41,856 nucleotides of DNA from Tissierellia bacterium (GCA_012843025.1 DURT01000010.1:1-41856), one strand, 5' to 3'. Shown: positions 33,965 through 41,810, counted from the stretch's first letter. The notes: generated by a model not told the origin, from the sequence alone. A program made the numbers and translations.

Positions 33965-34288
33965 TTATTCTACTACAACAGCTGTTCCAGAAACTGTAAC
34001 CATGAGCATATCGTTTCCCTGTCCAAGGACTTCATAATCTACATCAACACCTACCACTGCATTTGCTCCCATGGACATTGCCCTGCTTTCCATTTCTAAC
34101 AATGCATTTTCCCGCGCTTCAATCAGTTCCCCTTCATATGAACGGGATCTTCCGCCAAAAAAATTAGTCAGTCCTGCAGCAATATCCTTTACAAAATTAA
34201 CACCTGAAATAACTTCACCAAATACAATTCCCTTGTATTCAACAATTTTTTTACCTTCTACATTGGGCGTTGTAGTTATTATCATCAT
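33965..34288 (-). CDS. YbjQ-family (DUF74) heavy-metal-binding-type protein
   Basis: A 107-residue YbjQ protein ([25 protein letters not shown] start, [33 protein letters not shown] centre, [10 protein letters not shown] end), the usual length for the family. The family forms ring-shaped oligomers; its function is unknown, and the heavy-metal link in the name is weak. The frame is open further to 34372, giving a hydrophobic N-terminus, but GGAGG directly precedes the tandem ATGs at 34291 and 34288, so the extension is not part of the gene. It lies 80 bases beyond the four-gene operon. Confidence 0.88.
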
Positions 34289-34368
34289 ACCCTCCGATAT
34301 ATTTATTGGTATAAACATTATACCATAAATAGGAAGCATAAAAAACAGAAAAAGGAAGAAATTTAAAA

Positions 34369-36564
34369 TCAAATTCTTACATATCGTTTCCCAGGGTCTA
34401 TGGATAAATCAGGCTTAATCCCATTATAGGCCTGAGAAAGCAATGGAATCAACTCATCTACAATAATATTGCTTTCCATGTCAGAAACCCCCTGGGAAAG
34501 AAGTCCAGCCTTGAACAACTTTATAAAGGTACCAGTGAAACACTGGGCCCATATTTTGGGGTTGTTAGGGTTATTTACATTATTATATGAAACTTTATAG
34601 TTATCGTCTATCATGCTATACTTCCATGCTCCCAAAAATGCATTTTCAATTTTATCTCTCAACTCATCCTTAGGTTCATCAAAGGCAAGCATATTTAAGG
34701 GCATGAAATAAGGTGCCTTACTTCTGATATTGTGGTATTTATAGTTATGATATTCCAATGTGTAATTAAATATAAAATTACCGCTGTGGTTTCTATATTT
34801 ATTAAGAATATTCATTATATCTGTAGTTAAAAACTTTTTTATTTTCGGTGCATTTAGAAATTTTTCAACTCCTGAATAAGCCTTGGATATATCGAAGGGT
34901 ATAGCTTTAAAAACGGGAAAGGCTCCCGCAATATCTAATAAACCCTTACACATACCAATTAGTGTTTGTACGTTTTCATCACTGTTATCATATGATTCCT
35001 TAAATTTATTTAGCTGTCTGTCTTTCAAAATTTTAACTTCCTGGCAATAATAGGACATTTTTTGAATTATTTCATCACTGACTTTGTACTTTCTTTGCTG
35101 CAAATTGTTTGTTTTCTTACTGCTTTTTTGGTTTTTTGAAGTAGCAGGCTTATCCAACAAATTTGCAACATCTTTGCCATAAGCCTCCGTTAATCTTTTC
35201 ATTTCAGCGATAATTTCTTTTAGATATTGCTCCCCTCGAATTATTCTTTCTTCAAGTAACTTTAATTCGTCTGCTTCATTTGATATTTCAATTTGTTCAG
35301 GTTCTTCTCCTATTATTTCATAGAGAAGGTCGCTAACCTGCAAACTGAAATCTGAATACTTTGCAATATCCTCTTCAGAAATAGTTGTGCTGTCTAATAT
35401 AATGTCATATATAACATAGAAGCTTCTGTATAAAGATCTGAAATCATATTCTGAGCATAGTTTCCTAACCATTCTTGCTACTATGCCATATACAGCCAAA
35501 TTTGTATAGTGGCTTCGGTAGGTCCAGCGGTCGCTATCATCAGCAAAATATTTGTCATTTTCATGAACAATAATATATTTATAAGGATCGTCGCAATGTT
35601 TTTCCCAATCATCCTTTAAAATTTTCAGATTTGCTCCAAATTCAGTAAAATAGTTTTCATAAAGGACCATTACCTGGTCAACTATATTTAAGGGTATTTC
35701 TTTCAGGCCTGTTTCTAATTTGTTATACAGATAGCGGGTAAAATCTTTAAGGACATTGTAATCTGTCATCTCCCTGCGAAATCTTTGGGCATATTTTCTT
35801 AATTCATTTATATATTTCTTGTTACCTTTACCGCCCCTACTTTTATTTGATGTGCCGAAGGGAACTGTAAAGCCCTTGAAAGTGGAAGCACCACCTATAG
35901 ATTTCTGCATGCTATCCTTGCTAGTTGCTGCTCCAATACTTTTATTTAACTTATTAACAAAGTCATCCTTTAAGTTATCAATAGTCCTGACTGATTCATG
36001 GGTAAATAACTGAACTCCCTGGCTTATTGCTTCCGCTAAGGGCAGAAATGCAATATAGATTTTATTGTCTTCAGCTAATTTGTTGATGGAACTAATATAA
36101 CTATCCCCTAACTCTTCCATGCTTCTTGAAAAATCCTCAAATTTATCTTTAATTACAGAAAACATGATTTCATCAGCTTCAGGTGTATCGGTACCATTTA
36201 AAGGTAATAATTCAAACTTGCTGTTTTTCTTAGTTAACAGTTCAATTATATCATTTTCTACTTTCCGCGCATATTCCTCTGCTTCTTCCCCTGCTCCAAG
36301 ATTTTTTAAATAACCTAATAAGGAAGACTGTGAGTCTCCCCATATTGAAACCAATTTTGGATTAAGTTCTTCACATATAGTAACATTGTATAATTTAAGG
36401 AATTCATTTATTATAATGCCAATTTTCTCATAGTTGGTCTTTAAAAAGATTTCTTCTAAACTAGATTTTAACTCCTGGGTTTTCTTGTTGGATTCATTTA
36501 TATAATTTTCAGCCAAATCAATAAAAACTTTGGCTGTTTCTTCGCTAAAATTAATATTCATCAT
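34369..36564 (-). CDS. Large helical protein of the FtsK-type operon, unknown function
   Basis: A protein of about 731 residues, highly helical and charged, with no signal peptide or membrane helix. I recognise no family. Its first ~215 residues align with almost the full 240-aa product of the gene at 38812: for instance both have an ETAK/EEAQ start, a KTQE/ETQK region, a [17 protein letters not shown] block, an DTPE/DTPD segment and a shared DDF..KLN end. A basic low-complexity linker ([11 protein letters not shown]) follows, and another polar linker lies near the middle ([11 protein letters not shown]). The ATG is chosen at 36564 because GGGGG lies six bases upstream; it overlaps the FtsK gene stop by 14 bases. 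An ATG at 36561 is also possible. Confidence 0.8.
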
Positions 36565-38791
36565 ATTCATCCCCCAATATGTCGTCAAAATTCAGTGATG
36601 GAGCAATACTTTCTGATAACTTGATTCTGTATTTCTTAAAGGATCTCTCTGTATTTAAACTTTTTATTTTTAAATCTAATACAATTGAATTATGAGCTTT
36701 GTTTGTATAAGTAATCCCACATCTGTCATATATTTTTTGATTGTTGCCACCTGCAAAAACATAGTCACAACATCCCAATACACTGCGGAAATTATTATCA
36801 TCACTAGTTGAAAATATTATAAAAAGCATATTTACATCCATACCATTTTTTAAAGTAGACGTAAAACCCCTAGGAAGAGTATCTAAGCTATCTATTCCAC
36901 TGATCCATACTATATAGGGACTGAAAAGTTCAAATAAGTCATTTGTCTGGGCATTATATTTATAGTAGTAGATCATGGGATCAGTAAGAGCTGCATAACC
37001 ATCATCAAGGGATAGGAGTTTTTCGCATATGCCTGGTATATCATACAACTTTGCATCAGAAAAATGCTTCAACCCTTCCTTTATTGCCTCCTCAACATTG
37101 GTGCCCTTTGCTTTACCTAGTTCTGTGAAATATATTTTTATAAATTCACCTGGGGAAAATGAATTTTGCAAACTCTGCTCTATAATTTTTCTTTGTTTGA
37201 ATAAGAAGTCAATATCCGTCAAATAATCTGGGCTTTCAAGCACAGTTACATTCTCTATATCAGAAAGTATATTATACTTGTTGGCAACAACCCGGTTTAA
37301 AGAAAAATAAATATGATTGTAGCCATTGCCATCATATTCTCTGTGGGACTTACCAAAGTTAACAGCTAGCAACTTCTGCATATAAGCCAAATCATCCACT
37401 TCCGGAGAAACTACGGCAATATTTTTATTTAATCCTCTTTCAAGAAATAATGTTTCTAAATCTATTTTTCTGTTTCTATATAGGACAGACTCGCCAAGTG
37501 TCAATAAATCAAAATATCTTCCATCACTGTTAGTTACTGTATCACGACGAACGTCTATAATTCTGTCAAGTATATTTTGTAATACTGAAATATCCTTTCT
37601 TGAATCTTCTTGATAGAATTTCTTCGTCTTGCAAAATTTAAACTTATCTCCCTCTATAGTGATGTTTTTTAAATAGGAATAAAAGTAACTTTCTTTTTGA
37701 TCACCTGTATCAGTTACTTTGTTATCATCTGCAATAAAGGGAACCCTGAATAATTTGTTATCAGCTGCACTTCCTGAGGCAGTATTGACGTAAACATTTC
37801 CTACTTCCAGATCTGCTGCTGCAGAATTTCCCAAAATTGCCGTTGAAACTTCAGCATCACAGGGAAGGGCAAAACGTATCTTAAAGTTTGCCAATGCTTT
37901 ACCTGAAAGGGCTCCTGACATTTCCTGACTGGCAAAAATAAGATGAAAACCAGTAGCACGTCCTAATTTTATAATTGATGTCAATAAATTTTGAATAATA
38001 CTTCCTTCCCTGTTTGTGGCCTCTAAAAACATTTGCTGGAATTCATCTACTAGTAAAACTACCCTTGGTAGAACCACTCCATATTTTTCTCTGAAATCAG
38101 TTATTTTTTGAAGACCTAAGCGGGCAAATAAATCCTGTCGTGCATACATACATTCAACAATATACTCTATAAGAGATATAACATACCTGATTTCACTGGT
38201 TGCAGCACATGCTTTAATATGTGAAGTCTGGTATTTTGTCATATACCTGCTAAGTTCAACTTTTTTGAAATCAACTAAGTACAAGTCCAACTCCCAGGGC
38301 GGGTATTCAGCCAACATATTAAAAATTAGGTTGTTGAGAAAAACAGACTTACCAGAACCTGTTCTTCCTACTACTACTCCATGGACAGCAAAATCTCCCA
38401 TTTCAACTGCAATTGGATTGCTCTTTTCATTATCTAACAAACCTGGTCTCAGGTTAACACCTTTTAAAGTTGAATTGAACCAAAAACCCTTCTCCGGAAC
38501 CTTGTTTAGTGAAACAGTTTCAAAAGATTTAAGCATATGTAAGAACTTGCTGTTACACAGCTCCTGGTTGTCGGATATATCATCAAATTGTTTTATAAAT
38601 GTAATTGGTTCCGGACATATAAGTGCTTTTGCCCCATCTTCATAATAGATGGGGCTAATTTCCTTTTCAAATTTACCTGGCTGAGTGCTTAACATCTCAA
38701 ACCAATCTTTTCTGAATTTTTCGTGTCTTAATCTCTTAGCTTCAATTGCTTCTTCCGCCATTCTTTTAGCAACATTGCTCAGTAGTGACAT
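36551..38791 (-). CDS. FtsK/SpoIIIE-type ATPase (EssC-like, no membrane segments)
   Basis: A 746-residue protein with an FtsK/SpoIIIE domain at about 115-355: Walker A GRTGSGKS (142-149), LDLYLVDFKK (about 167-176), Walker B VVLLVDEF (244-251) and ASQEMSG (287-293). All catalytic residues are intact. The C-terminal half contains a second, degenerate ATPase-like fold (IAVVSPEVDD, IVWISGIDSLDTLP, MLFIIFSTSDD). No membrane helix, FHA or gamma domain is seen, so it is neither cell-division FtsK nor a complete EssC. The frame opens at 38803 with TTG, but GGAGG sits five bases before the ATG at 38791. It belongs to an operon with a membrane pseudo-ATPase. Confidence 0.9.
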   Translation of the reverse strand: MSLLSNVAKRMAEEAIEAKRLRHEKFRKDWFEMLSTQPGKFEKEISPIYYEDGAKALICPEPITFIKQFDDISDNQELCNSKFLHMLKSFETVSLNKVPEKGFWFNSTLKGVNLRPGLLDNEKSNPIAVEMGDFAVHGVVVGRTGSGKSVFLNNLIFNMLAEYPPWELDLYLVDFKKVELSRYMTKYQTSHIKACAATSEIRYVISLIEYIVECMYARQDLFARLGLQKITDFREKYGVVLPRVVLLVDEFQQMFLEATNREGSIIQNLLTSIIKLGRATGFHLIFASQEMSGALSGKALANFKIRFALPCDAEVSTAILGNSAAADLEVGNVYVNTASGSAADNKLFRVPFIADDNKVTDTGDQKESYFYSYLKNITIEGDKFKFCKTKKFYQEDSRKDISVLQNILDRIIDVRRDTVTNSDGRYFDLLTLGESVLYRNRKIDLETLFLERGLNKNIAVVSPEVDDLAYMQKLLAVNFGKSHREYDGNGYNHIYFSLNRVVANKYNILSDIENVTVLESPDYLTDIDFLFKQRKIIEQSLQNSFSPGEFIKIYFTELGKAKGTNVEEAIKEGLKHFSDAKLYDIPGICEKLLSLDDGYAALTDPMIYYYKYNAQTNDLFELFSPYIVWISGIDSLDTLPRGFTSTLKNGMDVNMLFIIFSTSDDNNFRSVLGCCDYVFAGGNNQKIYDRCGITYTNKAHNSIVLDLKIKSLNTERSFKKYRIKLSESIAPSLNFDDILGDEYDEY

Positions 38792-38811
38792 ACTTACCTC
38801 CAACTCAATAT

Positions 38812-39534
38812 TTAAGCTTTAAAAATACCTGACAATCCCCTGAATTTTTCTGCACTTTCCTGGACAACATTGCTCATGGCCTGTTTAACATCATCTGATC
38901 TTTGGATATTAATATTAAGTTTTTCGCTAAAATCATCCCTCAACATATCGACTTTATTGGCGAATTCTTCGAATGTACCTATTATTGAATCCAATGTTTC
39001 TGCAACTACAGCCTGAATCGTATAAAAAGCTGTATTCTCTTCACCTTCGTTTTCAATGGTTGTCAAATATTTTGATTTTATTTCTTCTAACTTATTGCTA
39101 TAATCCTTCGTATAATCTATAAGTAATTCATAATCCTCTTTGGATACATCCGGTGTATCTGTTGCAACATGAAGCTCTTCCAAGGGACTTGCAAACATTT
39201 CATCTATAACATTTTCAAGACTTCTTTCCAGTCCTACTGCCGTTCTGTAGGCATCCTCTCCTCCTTCCATGGTTTCTATAAAAGCATGAAGGCTGGACTC
39301 AGATTCCACCCAATCTCCGAAATACTTTTTAATATCATAGCGCAGGGTTTCATTGTAAAATTTAATACTATCATTAGCTGCATTCACCATGGGCAAAAAC
39401 TTTGTTTTCTCACATAAAGCGTTCATCTTATCAAGGTATTTTTGTGTTTCCGAATTAGTATCCTCAATAGCGCTTTGATACAAGGAAATTATTTGCTGTT
39501 GTGCTTCCTCTTTAAAACTAAACTTATTAGACAT
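38812..39534 (-). CDS. Helical 240-aa protein of the FtsK-type operon, unknown function
   Basis: A 240-residue acidic, all-helical soluble protein (KEEAQQQIISLYQSAIED start, SDDVKQAMSNVVQESAEKFRG end). No signal peptide, membrane segment or named family was recognised. It is a stand-alone version of the N-terminal domain of the fourth gene's product. It may be an adaptor or cargo of the ATPase; it lacks a clear W-x-G motif, so it cannot be called a WXG100 protein. GGAGAAAGGAAA precedes the ATG. It lies 17 bases after the 752-aa gene and 20 bases before the FtsK gene. Confidence 0.8.
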   Translation of the reverse strand: MSNKFSFKEEAQQQIISLYQSAIEDTNSETQKYLDKMNALCEKTKFLPMVNAANDSIKFYNETLRYDIKKYFGDWVESESSLHAFIETMEGGEDAYRTAVGLERSLENVIDEMFASPLEELHVATDTPDVSKEDYELLIDYTKDYSNKLEEIKSKYLTTIENEGEENTAFYTIQAVVAETLDSIIGTFEEFANKVDMLRDDFSEKLNINIQRSDDVKQAMSNVVQESAEKFRGLSGIFKA

Positions 39535-39551
39535 TTTCCTTTCTCCTATTC

Positions 39552-41810
39552 CTAATATTTTGTAATTGAACAGTTTACATCATCAACTAAATAAATATTT
39601 TGTTGATTTATCATGTTCGCCAATTTTTCATAAATTGCAGCATTCTCAGTTTTATTTCCTGATTTATACTTGTTCCACTCCGATACATCAATAAAAAATA
39701 TAGGTAAGAAACCATACTTGTCCCCATCATACATAAGCCTTAAAATATCTTCGTTTACAATACTATGTATGCCTGAATTATCTCCTGAGGGAACCATAAC
39801 GTATACAATCTGATATTTAAATGGAGGATCTGAATCCTTAACTCTGATTCTATTAGCCTCAGCTATTGAACCTTTTGAACTGTTTACCACTTTCTTGATT
39901 TCTGCTTCAATTTGTTCAATTAATGCACGGAGCATAGAATTTTTTTCATAAACTTTAAGGATGGAACTATAGGCAGGTGACTGGAATGTCTTTGCACCTG
40001 TAACCGTATCCACCAAGCTTTGTTGAATTGTATTTATTGCATTTGTTCTGTAAAATCCTTCAATCAAGGACTTAAGGAAATTTTCAAGCTGTTGTGTAAC
40101 ATTCCCCATTCTGTTACTGTCATCTAACTCATATAAGAATATACTGGGTCTGTAGTTATGGTCAAAGACAGAGAAGGTTACAGCATCTGAATCCTTATTT
40201 AATTCCTGAATATATGTATTAGGGCTAAGTACTCCTTCAGTTTCTTCTACAGTTGGTATTTTGTCGAAACCCTCTGCTAATTTAGCACAAATTTCTTTAA
40301 ATTCATCTATTTCAGATACCAGTTTATCTAATTCTTCTGTAAGTCTGTTCAACTTTTTATCAAGATCCTTGTTTTCCTTATCCAAGGCCTTGAAGTCCTC
40401 TTCATACTGTCGGAGCATTCTTTCCCGAATAGTTTTTTCACCTGTACTGTTTAAATTGTTTACAGCACCATATTTCTCATTGTTTAAATTTTCTTTTTCC
40501 TTAGTCAGGTTCTTTATAGTTTCTAAATTGGATACTTTTTCATATTCTCTTTTATATTCATTTTTGGCTTTAGACAGTTCTTCTTTTGTTTCTTTAATTT
40601 TTGCTGTATATGTGTCAATATTCTTTACCGCTTGATTGTAGGTGCTGTTGGCTGCTTGTAAAGTAGATTTATAAGTGCTTTCTCTGTGTTTATAATCCTT
40701 TACAATTTGTTTCTCATGCTTTGTTCTTTCCTTACTTTTTTTGTTTAAAGCAATTGCCAGTGCTCTATTTTGTCTTAAGGCCAGTAAGGCTTCTTCTTCA
40801 GACTCGAGGTTTTTCAGCAACTTTGCTTTTTCGTCCCTTAGTCCAATATTTTCGCTAACTATAGTCTCATATTTTTCTAAATCAGAACTTAATTCAGCTA
40901 TTTTATTTTCATAGTAAGTTTTAATTTCATCTGTATCCCTGGTAGTTATATTTAGCTTAATTTTAGTATATTTTTCTACTATCCTATCTCCCTTTAAGAC
41001 AAAGAAGTAAAAATCTTTTCTCTCTACAAGTAACTGCATTAAATTATTTAAAGGCTTCTCCTTTATCCTATAAATATTGATAAGAAATGTAATGAAGGAT
41101 AAAAGTACAATTGCCCCTTTATAAAATTTCCCTATACCTGCAAATAAACCAATCAGGATACAAATCAAAGATATATAATTAACAACAGTTGATACAATTA
41201 GTCTCTTTCTAGGAATTATATCCATGGTATTTAAATTGGGATTAAAAATAATTTTAACTGCATCTTTAAAACCCAACCTATTATATACCGAGTCTCCCTC
41301 TTTAAACTTAATATCTTCTGGAACATCCAATTTGTATATATCTATATCATTTAAATCTTCTTTTACTGATTCCCACATTCCATCTAAGGCTGCCTTAACA
41401 TCAAAGTCGGGATATATTTTACTAATGCTATTAATATCATCTTTGACTTTTGCAGTATAAGATTTTAATTTTTGAATTTGTTCCCTATTCTTTTTAAGAA
41501 TTTCGAAATATTTTTTTTCGTTTGAGTTCTGACTATTTTTGATTTTGTTAATTTTGTCATCAACATTCTTTATCTTTTTATCAAACTCAGCCTCAATACT
41601 TTTGATTTCTTTTTTCAATGCATCTTTTACATACTTGTCAAAATTTTTTTCATGGTCTTCTGTAAGAGCATTGAGTTTTTCCTGATTTACTCTTAACTTG
41701 CTTTCTACATCAGCAATTCTTTGTCTTAAATCTTCTACCTTATTGCTGTTTTCTTTAAGAATTTTTTGTTTTTCAACATAGTTTTGATAATTAACTTCCA
41801 CTCCAGCCAT
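39552..41810 (-). CDS. Membrane coiled-coil protein with degenerate FtsK-like ATPase domain
   Basis: A 752-residue protein. Residues about 10-130 form a coiled coil, two membrane helices lie at about 204-226 and 232-248, and a second long coiled coil covers about 295-515. Residues about 545-752 align with the FtsK domain of the next-but-one gene: TQQLENFLKSLIEGF (572-586) matches the helix after Walker A, INTIQQSLVD the strand LDLYLVD, and KYQIVYVMVPSG (665-676) the Walker B strand. The Walker A is replaced by DDSNRMGN and the Walker B acids by VPS, so it should not hydrolyse ATP. GGGGAG precedes the ATG. It is the first gene of the operon seen here; 41811-41856 holds only AT-rich upstream DNA. 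Confidence 0.82.
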   Translation of the reverse strand: MAGVEVNYQNYVEKQKILKENSNKVEDLRQRIADVESKLRVNQEKLNALTEDHEKNFDKYVKDALKKEIKSIEAEFDKKIKNVDDKINKIKNSQNSNEKKYFEILKKNREQIQKLKSYTAKVKDDINSISKIYPDFDVKAALDGMWESVKEDLNDIDIYKLDVPEDIKFKEGDSVYNRLGFKDAVKIIFNPNLNTMDIIPRKRLIVSTVVNYISLICILIGLFAGIGKFYKGAIVLLSFITFLINIYRIKEKPLNNLMQLLVERKDFYFFVLKGDRIVEKYTKIKLNITTRDTDEIKTYYENKIAELSSDLEKYETIVSENIGLRDEKAKLLKNLESEEEALLALRQNRALAIALNKKSKERTKHEKQIVKDYKHRESTYKSTLQAANSTYNQAVKNIDTYTAKIKETKEELSKAKNEYKREYEKVSNLETIKNLTKEKENLNNEKYGAVNNLNSTGEKTIRERMLRQYEEDFKALDKENKDLDKKLNRLTEELDKLVSEIDEFKEICAKLAEGFDKIPTVEETEGVLSPNTYIQELNKDSDAVTFSVFDHNYRPSIFLYELDDSNRMGNVTQQLENFLKSLIEGFYRTNAINTIQQSLVDTVTGAKTFQSPAYSSILKVYEKNSMLRALIEQIEAEIKKVVNSSKGSIAEANRIRVKDSDPPFKYQIVYVMVPSGDNSGIHSIVNEDILRLMYDGDKYGFLPIFFIDVSEWNKYKSGNKTENAAIYEKLANMINQQNIYLVDDVNCSITKY

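Follow-up and report, generated by a model that had tools for sequence, protein, structure and literature searches.

The 41,856-nucleotide stretch of Tissierellia bacterium DNA analysed here (GCA_012843025.1 DURT01000010.1:1-41856, hereafter the window) carries four minus-strand genes, designated CC752, H240, FtsK750 and B, that we read, with a probability of about 0.7, as a compact machine of type VII-like kind that exports polymorphic toxins, in which domains of one helical family (the H family) replace WXG100 and LXG proteins. Toxin export is proposed because one export-type domain is common to a stand-alone partner protein and to the N-termini of toxins; the motor is regarded as type VII-like because its ATPase is closest to the ATPases of type VII secretion systems (T7SS) and FtsK, and the C-terminus of CC752 to EccC and EssC structures. 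The window is one complete contig of a 97-contig genome; the 5' end of the operon may lie beyond the readable sequence, and the last 127 bases had no match to any other contig. The genes, given as open reading frames (ORFs) with lengths in amino acids (aa) and their ribosome-binding sites (RBS), are as follows.

39552..41810, minus strand: CC752, 752 aa, ATG start, RBS GGGGAG
38812..39534, minus strand: H240, helical protein conserved in every locus, RBS AGGAG
36551..38791, minus strand: FtsK750, 746 aa from the ATG at 38791 (ORF open from a TTG at 38803), RBS GGAGG
34369..36564, minus strand: B, larger helical protein, 731 aa from the ATG at 36564 (ORF open from a TTG at 36588), RBS GGGGG

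All four genes are co-directional, running from 41810 to 34369, and a good ribosome-binding site precedes each. With the RBS-supported starts, CC752 and H240 are separated by 17 bases and H240 and FtsK750 by 20 bases, while FtsK750 and B overlap by 14 bases. A first-pass annotation of this DNA had predicted these ORFs with this spacing, and had described their products as a membrane coiled-coil pseudo-ATPase, a helical protein, an active FtsK/SpoIIIE ATPase and a larger helical protein; the ORFs, gaps and overlap were confirmed with Shine-Dalgarno-backed starts, and the descriptions of the products agree with the analyses presented below.

The CC-H-FtsK-(B) order recurs in 13 further loci, all in Clostridia, and because the same order was found in these other loci the operon is not a chance arrangement. 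A scan of about 85,000 genomes yielded ten of the loci, all in metagenome-assembled genomes of Clostridia, and a sampled order (392 genomes) added a second copy in one of the scan genomes and two more genomes (L-numbers below denote related loci, and G573 is the genome that holds both L008 and L031). Nine loci have the arrangement CC-H-FtsK-B; L009, L010 and L013 have CC, H and FtsK genes and no B, with a cysteine-rich protein of ~265 aa encoded between CC and H (L009:8415-9200, L010:8368-9159, L013:8317-9138); and L011, which begins inside the operon at a contig end, has two H genes before FtsK. The CC gene occupies the same position in 12 of the 13 related loci, the thirteenth being the truncated L011. 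Intergenic gaps are short throughout, except for the CC-H gap in L032. Among the 392 genomes of the sampled order, an FtsK profile retrieved four genomes and an H profile the same four, together with a weak partial match in a fifth. The system is thus rare (~1% of the sampled order), and at E 1e-60 it was found in none of 391 genomes of the window's class, its own genome excepted. H-domain genes were confined to these loci in all 13 genomes searched, so that the co-conservation on which the first-pass annotation had made its proposal depend was borne out. That annotation had also supposed that upstream genes outside the window might complete the system; the relatives share no gene upstream of CC besides a helix-turn-helix regulator, and essential missing parts are unlikely.

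CC752 contains two coiled-coil stretches, and two further parts of it were delimited.

41064..41201, minus strand: hydrophobic segment of CC752, residues 204-249, from a Kyte-Doolittle scan
39552..40259, minus strand: degenerate FtsK/EccC-type ATPase domain of CC752, residues 518-752, from an AlphaFold2 model and Foldseek

Judged from its sequence, the segment at residues 204-249 probably forms a two-helix membrane hairpin; such hydrophobic helices, one to about four per protein among the relatives, were present in 13 of the 13 CC proteins examined. The Walker A pattern GxxxxGK[ST] was found in 0 of 10 CC proteins. When the C-terminal domain was modelled with AlphaFold2 from a ten-sequence alignment (predicted local distance difference test [pLDDT] 83.9; predicted template-modelling score [pTM] 0.86), Foldseek matched the model to EccC (ATPases 2 and 3), EccCb1-D2, EssC, TcpA and the FtsK motor at E 5e-6 to 1e-4, the best structural matches being EccC and EssC. 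A PDB sequence search with the pseudo-domain gave no match, and its relation to ATPases is visible by fold comparison only. Because this domain is predicted to fold like the EccC, EssC and FtsK ATPases, the motor, as modelled, is split over two genes, with CC752 bearing the dead FtsK-type domain.

The active portion of the motor is encoded by FtsK750, in which three features were located.

38345..38368, minus strand: Walker A, GRTGSGKS, in the active domain of FtsK750, by pattern and invariance
38039..38056, minus strand: Walker B, LLVDEF, in the same domain, by pattern and invariance
36551..37522, minus strand: C-terminal part of FtsK750, from ORF residue 428, conserved and without a P-loop, by conservation

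One FtsK domain was recognised in FtsK750 (PF01580, E 6.5e-26); both Walker motifs are intact in it. When aligned with nine relatives, FtsK750 showed full-length identities of 39-50% (the alignments of FtsK and of B exclude the L007 genes, which are frame-shifted in the assembly). The best curated models were EssC (3e-23) and EccC (4e-21), with scores at 10-15% of the model cut-offs, and the best PDB sequences were EccC and YukB. Neither an FHA domain nor, among the Pfam matches, a winged-helix gamma domain (DNA recognition) was detected in FtsK750. The C-terminal part had no match in a PDB sequence search and a weak hhalign match to the third domain of relatives (E 0.006); it is possibly a degenerate third ATPase domain. 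Phylogenetically, the ATPases of these loci formed a clade of their own (support 98/96), apart from FtsK, EssC/EccC and WXG100-linked relatives, in a tree with few reference rows whose root is unresolved. The FtsK protein of L008 carries an additional N-terminal ATPase domain with an intact Walker A.

H240 is all-helical in its AlphaFold2 model, with two long hairpins (pLDDT 88). The first ~230 residues of B are paralogous to it (B residues 12-240; E 1.3e-17, 27% identity), a point that had been missed in the first-pass annotation, and B divides as follows.

35854..36564, minus strand: H domain at the N-terminus of B, paralogous to H240 (profile E 5e-67, the profile including B's own sequence)
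34369..35001, minus strand: C-terminal domain of B, common to L015, L014 and the end of the L008 toxin protein

The H domain is N-terminal in the B proteins, with the exceptions of L014 B and the second B of L012; L014 B has no recognisable H domain, and the start of its ORF is possibly incomplete. No significant match to the H domain was obtained in Pfam, PHROGs, NCBIfam or PADLOC, and the single match of the H family to WXG100 was a below-cut-off, one-helix match in the H protein of L008. Classification of H240 as a WXG100 or LXG protein was considered and is unsupported by profile or fold; we propose that H240 takes the place of WXG100/LXG as a partner or as a targeting protein. Most H proteins of the L009/L010/L013 subclade end in W....F[LMI].

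Homologues of B were found in 9 of the 13 other loci, and three of these carry toxin domains. The B proteins of L006 and L031 end in the papain-fold toxin/glutamine deamidase domain PF15644 (1.8e-14 and 3.6e-16, both above the cut-off) with the C, H and D motifs present. L008 B contains an ADP-ribosyltransferase (PF03496, 6.6e-18, above the cut-off) with the R, STT and ExE motifs present, flanked by a long N-terminal stretch and a C-terminal stretch with homology to window B and L014 B, respectively. The genes directly after the papain-fold toxins of L006 and L031 are homologous to each other (E 2.5e-14), as would be expected of immunity genes, for which they are candidates on sequence grounds. 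Window B is homologous to L015 B along its length, and its C-terminus had no match in a PDB sequence search. We conclude that B is probably an exported effector or toxin carrier, a substrate rather than a part of the machine; window B itself would be either an effector with an unrecognised domain or a carrier. Because the system travels with bacterial toxins in sister loci, its probable role is the export of toxin-carrying proteins. In G573 the system is present twice, once with the ADP-ribosyltransferase (L008) and once with the papain-fold domain (L031).

These data are consistent with a mechanism in which CC752 would sit in the membrane via its hydrophobic hairpin and multimerise through its coiled coils, with a dead FtsK-type ring (D1) facing the cytoplasm. 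FtsK750 would dock on CC752 as the ATP-burning motor, contributing the active D2 and the degenerate C-terminal part. H240 may pair with the H domain at the N-terminus of B, both as helical hairpins, and the two would so form the export signal, akin to LXG domains with their Lap/WXG100 partners in T7SSb, and ATP hydrolysis would then drive B across the membrane. The toxin domain is carried by B in relatives, the producer probably being protected by the neighbouring gene. The ATP-dependent export of B is inferred here from the logic of the family, and membrane assembly, H-H pairing, protein rather than DNA as the cargo, and antibacterial targets are likewise inferred.

Several observations weigh against interpreting the operon as a toxin exporter of type VII-like kind. 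Window B lacks a recognisable toxin domain; the polymorphic-toxin layout (shared N-terminal domain, variable toxin domains) is thus displayed by the family and not by the window's own B. A clear immunity gene is also missing, none being recognisable after B in the window, L015, L032 or L033, and the next gene in the window, of the YbjQ family, is self-standing, with its own RBS and a -10-like site. B is absent from four loci (L009, L010, L011 and L013), of which L010 ends shortly after FtsK. H240 has no WXG100 or LXG match by profile and no significant fold match. The tree separates these ATPases from EssC/EccC, with one of each included, both on long branches. Finally, no conserved channel protein besides CC752 was found.

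One could go further from T7SS and regard the operon as a secretion machine of its own kind, without descent from EssC/WXG100 and to be named apart from T7SSa-j, in which CC752 would unite the membrane conduit with the motor's dead half, the active ATPase would be a separate soluble protein, and H, a dedicated two-hairpin targeting family, would have been duplicated into partner and cargo signal; we hold this only tentatively. The main rival is rather unlikely. It takes the operon for an intracellular conflict or phage-defence complex, in which membrane-bound CC752 and FtsK750 release or activate B toxins inside the same cell without secretion. Distantly related coiled-coil EssC-like ATPases do sit in CoCoNuT and TerY-P loci (L018; PMC11090510), the distribution of the system is patchy and rare, and weak PADLOC matches were obtained to HEC-01A (E 0.03) and HEC-01B (E 0.005). 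However, CC752 has a predicted membrane anchor, the toxins, of the polymorphic-toxin type, have candidate immunity genes behind them, the surroundings of the operon show no recurring nuclease, sensor or CARF gene, and the CoCoNuT authors themselves see WXG100-linked ATPases implicated in defensive protein secretion (PMC11090510).

The two remaining alternatives are less likely. That the operon has diverged from within one of the named T7SS subtypes (T7SSb to T7SSj) is suggested by the EssC, EccC and YukB matches of FtsK750 and yet improbable, given the low fraction of the model cut-offs that they reach, the separate clade, and a split motor whose ATPase has no transmembrane or FHA part. In every named subtype EssC/EccC is membrane-bound and has four NTPase domains (PMC11217815). 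Moreover, EssB/YukC (PF10140) was absent from 11 of the 11 genomes searched, with a positive B. subtilis control, and WXG100 (PF06013) from 10 of the 11, the window's genome among the ten; LXG (PF04740) was absent from the window's genome and matched no H or B protein. EsaB/YukD, EssA and EsaA were not noticed beside the operon or its relatives, no genome-wide search having been made. The lack of T7SS core partners reported in the first-pass annotation extends to all genomes searched for EssB and to 10 of the 11 for WXG100, and its proposal, a translocation system not yet described and built like a split EssC, is supported by these absences, by the FtsK/EccC-fold pseudo-ATPase and by the co-conserved genes. 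A machine pumping chromosomal, plasmid or conjugative DNA with accessory helical proteins, which that annotation had entertained on the strength of parts such as an FtsK-family motor and to which the structural similarity of the CC752 pseudo-domain to TcpA and FtsK might also point, is the most improbable, with no gamma domain match, no relaxase or replication gene recurring nearby, an FtsK/SpoIIIE of the genome's own elsewhere, only distant ATPase homology in phage and plasmid collections, absence from viral contigs, and the toxin domains fused to B left unexplained.

The export reading is best placed by comparison with known systems. Outside the family, the nearest ATPases by profile were coiled-coil FtsK proteins on plasmids of Helicobacter (L017), Caballeronia (L018) and Rhodococcus (L019); these solo-WXG-type ATPases scored 123-157 bits, versus 44-94 for FtsK, EssC and EccC domains. 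Small WXG100-type genes adjoin all three, the Rhodococcus one judged by eye, and the pseudo-D1 of such ATPases matched the C-terminus of CC752 by hhalign (E 4e-5 to 5e-4). The plasmid proteins correspond to ATPases described earlier: those of the 'mobile versions of T7SS' or 'solo-WXG' systems, in which the middle of three FtsK domains is the sole active one (Zhang et al. 2012, Table 1 note 6, PMC3482391), and the EssC-like ATPases linked to CoCoNuT, which have coiled coils at the N-terminus and lack membrane helices (eLife 2024, PMC11090510). Such systems and the family of the window both combine a coiled coil and FtsK-type domains, one of them active, with small helical partner genes and toxin genes, and the three-domain layout may be recognised here over two genes, as D1 by fold, the active D2 and the C-terminal part as candidate D3 (hhalign 0.006). 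In contrast, solo-WXG systems have a single polypeptide without membrane helices plus a 90-aa WXG100 protein, whereas the window operon puts D1 on a membrane coiled-coil protein of its own, has H240 where they have WXG100, and bears an H domain on B. In the tree, too, the ATPases of the window's family stand in a clade apart from theirs. The homology to a named system that would have counted against the first-pass proposal extends to distant kinship of the ATPase with these EssC-like ATPases (PMC3482391, PMC11090510) and does not include the gene architecture. The simplest reading is that the window operon is a split, membrane-anchored version of the solo-WXG/CoCoNuT-ATPase layout with its own targeting family. 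In L017:5029-9431 (plasmid of Helicobacter sp. NHP19-012), the operon encodes an 89-aa WXG100-like protein, an SMI1/KNR4 protein, the coiled-coil FtsK ATPase and a coiled-coil protein of 340 aa with a WHH/colicin-type DNase domain at its C-terminus; it is a Gram-negative type VII-like toxin locus.

With T7SSb (EssC/YukB) the operon shares an FtsK-type motor with degenerate domains, a helical N-terminal targeting domain on variable toxins, a small helical partner gene nearby (Lap) and, after the papain-fold toxins of its relatives, a candidate for the immunity gene that T7SSb has downstream. Unlike here, where CC752 holds the helices and a pseudo-domain, EssC is a single protein with membrane helices, FHA and tandem FtsK domains; no EssB is encoded in the genome, and the H family is unrelated by profile to LXG or WXG100. 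T7SSc-T7SSj (Garrett et al. 2024, PMC11217815) are likewise rare Bacillota variants that differ in their accessory components and have candidate toxin substrates, but all have a membrane-bound four-NTPase TsxC, and a TsxA WXG100 protein was identified in all but T7SSi (published figure, PMC11217815); the system described here has neither. The CC-H-FtsK-B architecture matches none of T7SSa-j (PMC11217815), and no description of it was found in the literature searched, which reached few subscription papers. Polymorphic toxin systems with Tox-PL1/PF15644 or ADP-ribosyltransferase domains resemble it in combining a conserved N-terminal domain with toxin domains that can be exchanged and with candidate immunity genes next to them, and differ in that the N-terminal trafficking-type H domain has no significant database match.

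In the Clostridia genomes examined, LXG and WXG100 systems of the usual kind are few or lacking altogether, which makes toxin delivery there a puzzle. If the export reading is true, a four-gene, EssB-free, split-motor system would be a far more compact model of the way in which FtsK-type ATPases drive helical cargo across membranes, one gene anchoring a dead ATPase ring in the membrane and another hydrolysing ATP, two jobs that EssC does in one protein. The H-domain profile would also be a handle for discovering new toxins and immunity genes.

A phage or plasmid origin of the operon was rejected, as no full-length relative was found in the phage collection, the plasmid collection or viral contigs. 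Downstream of B, the YbjQ-family gene (33965-34372) was rejected as a fifth operon gene: its 4-base overlap with B arises only from the choice of a TTG start, the resulting N-terminal extension is probably not real, and its RBS and -10-like site accompany an ATG at 34288-34286. In one subclade a large Sel1-repeat protein, 33-44% identical between loci, is encoded downstream (L006:15542-18406, L031:587-3646 and L007:13993-15702); that of L006 has a weak zinc-ribbon match, and Sel1 or zinc-ribbon genes also lie beside L012 and L009.

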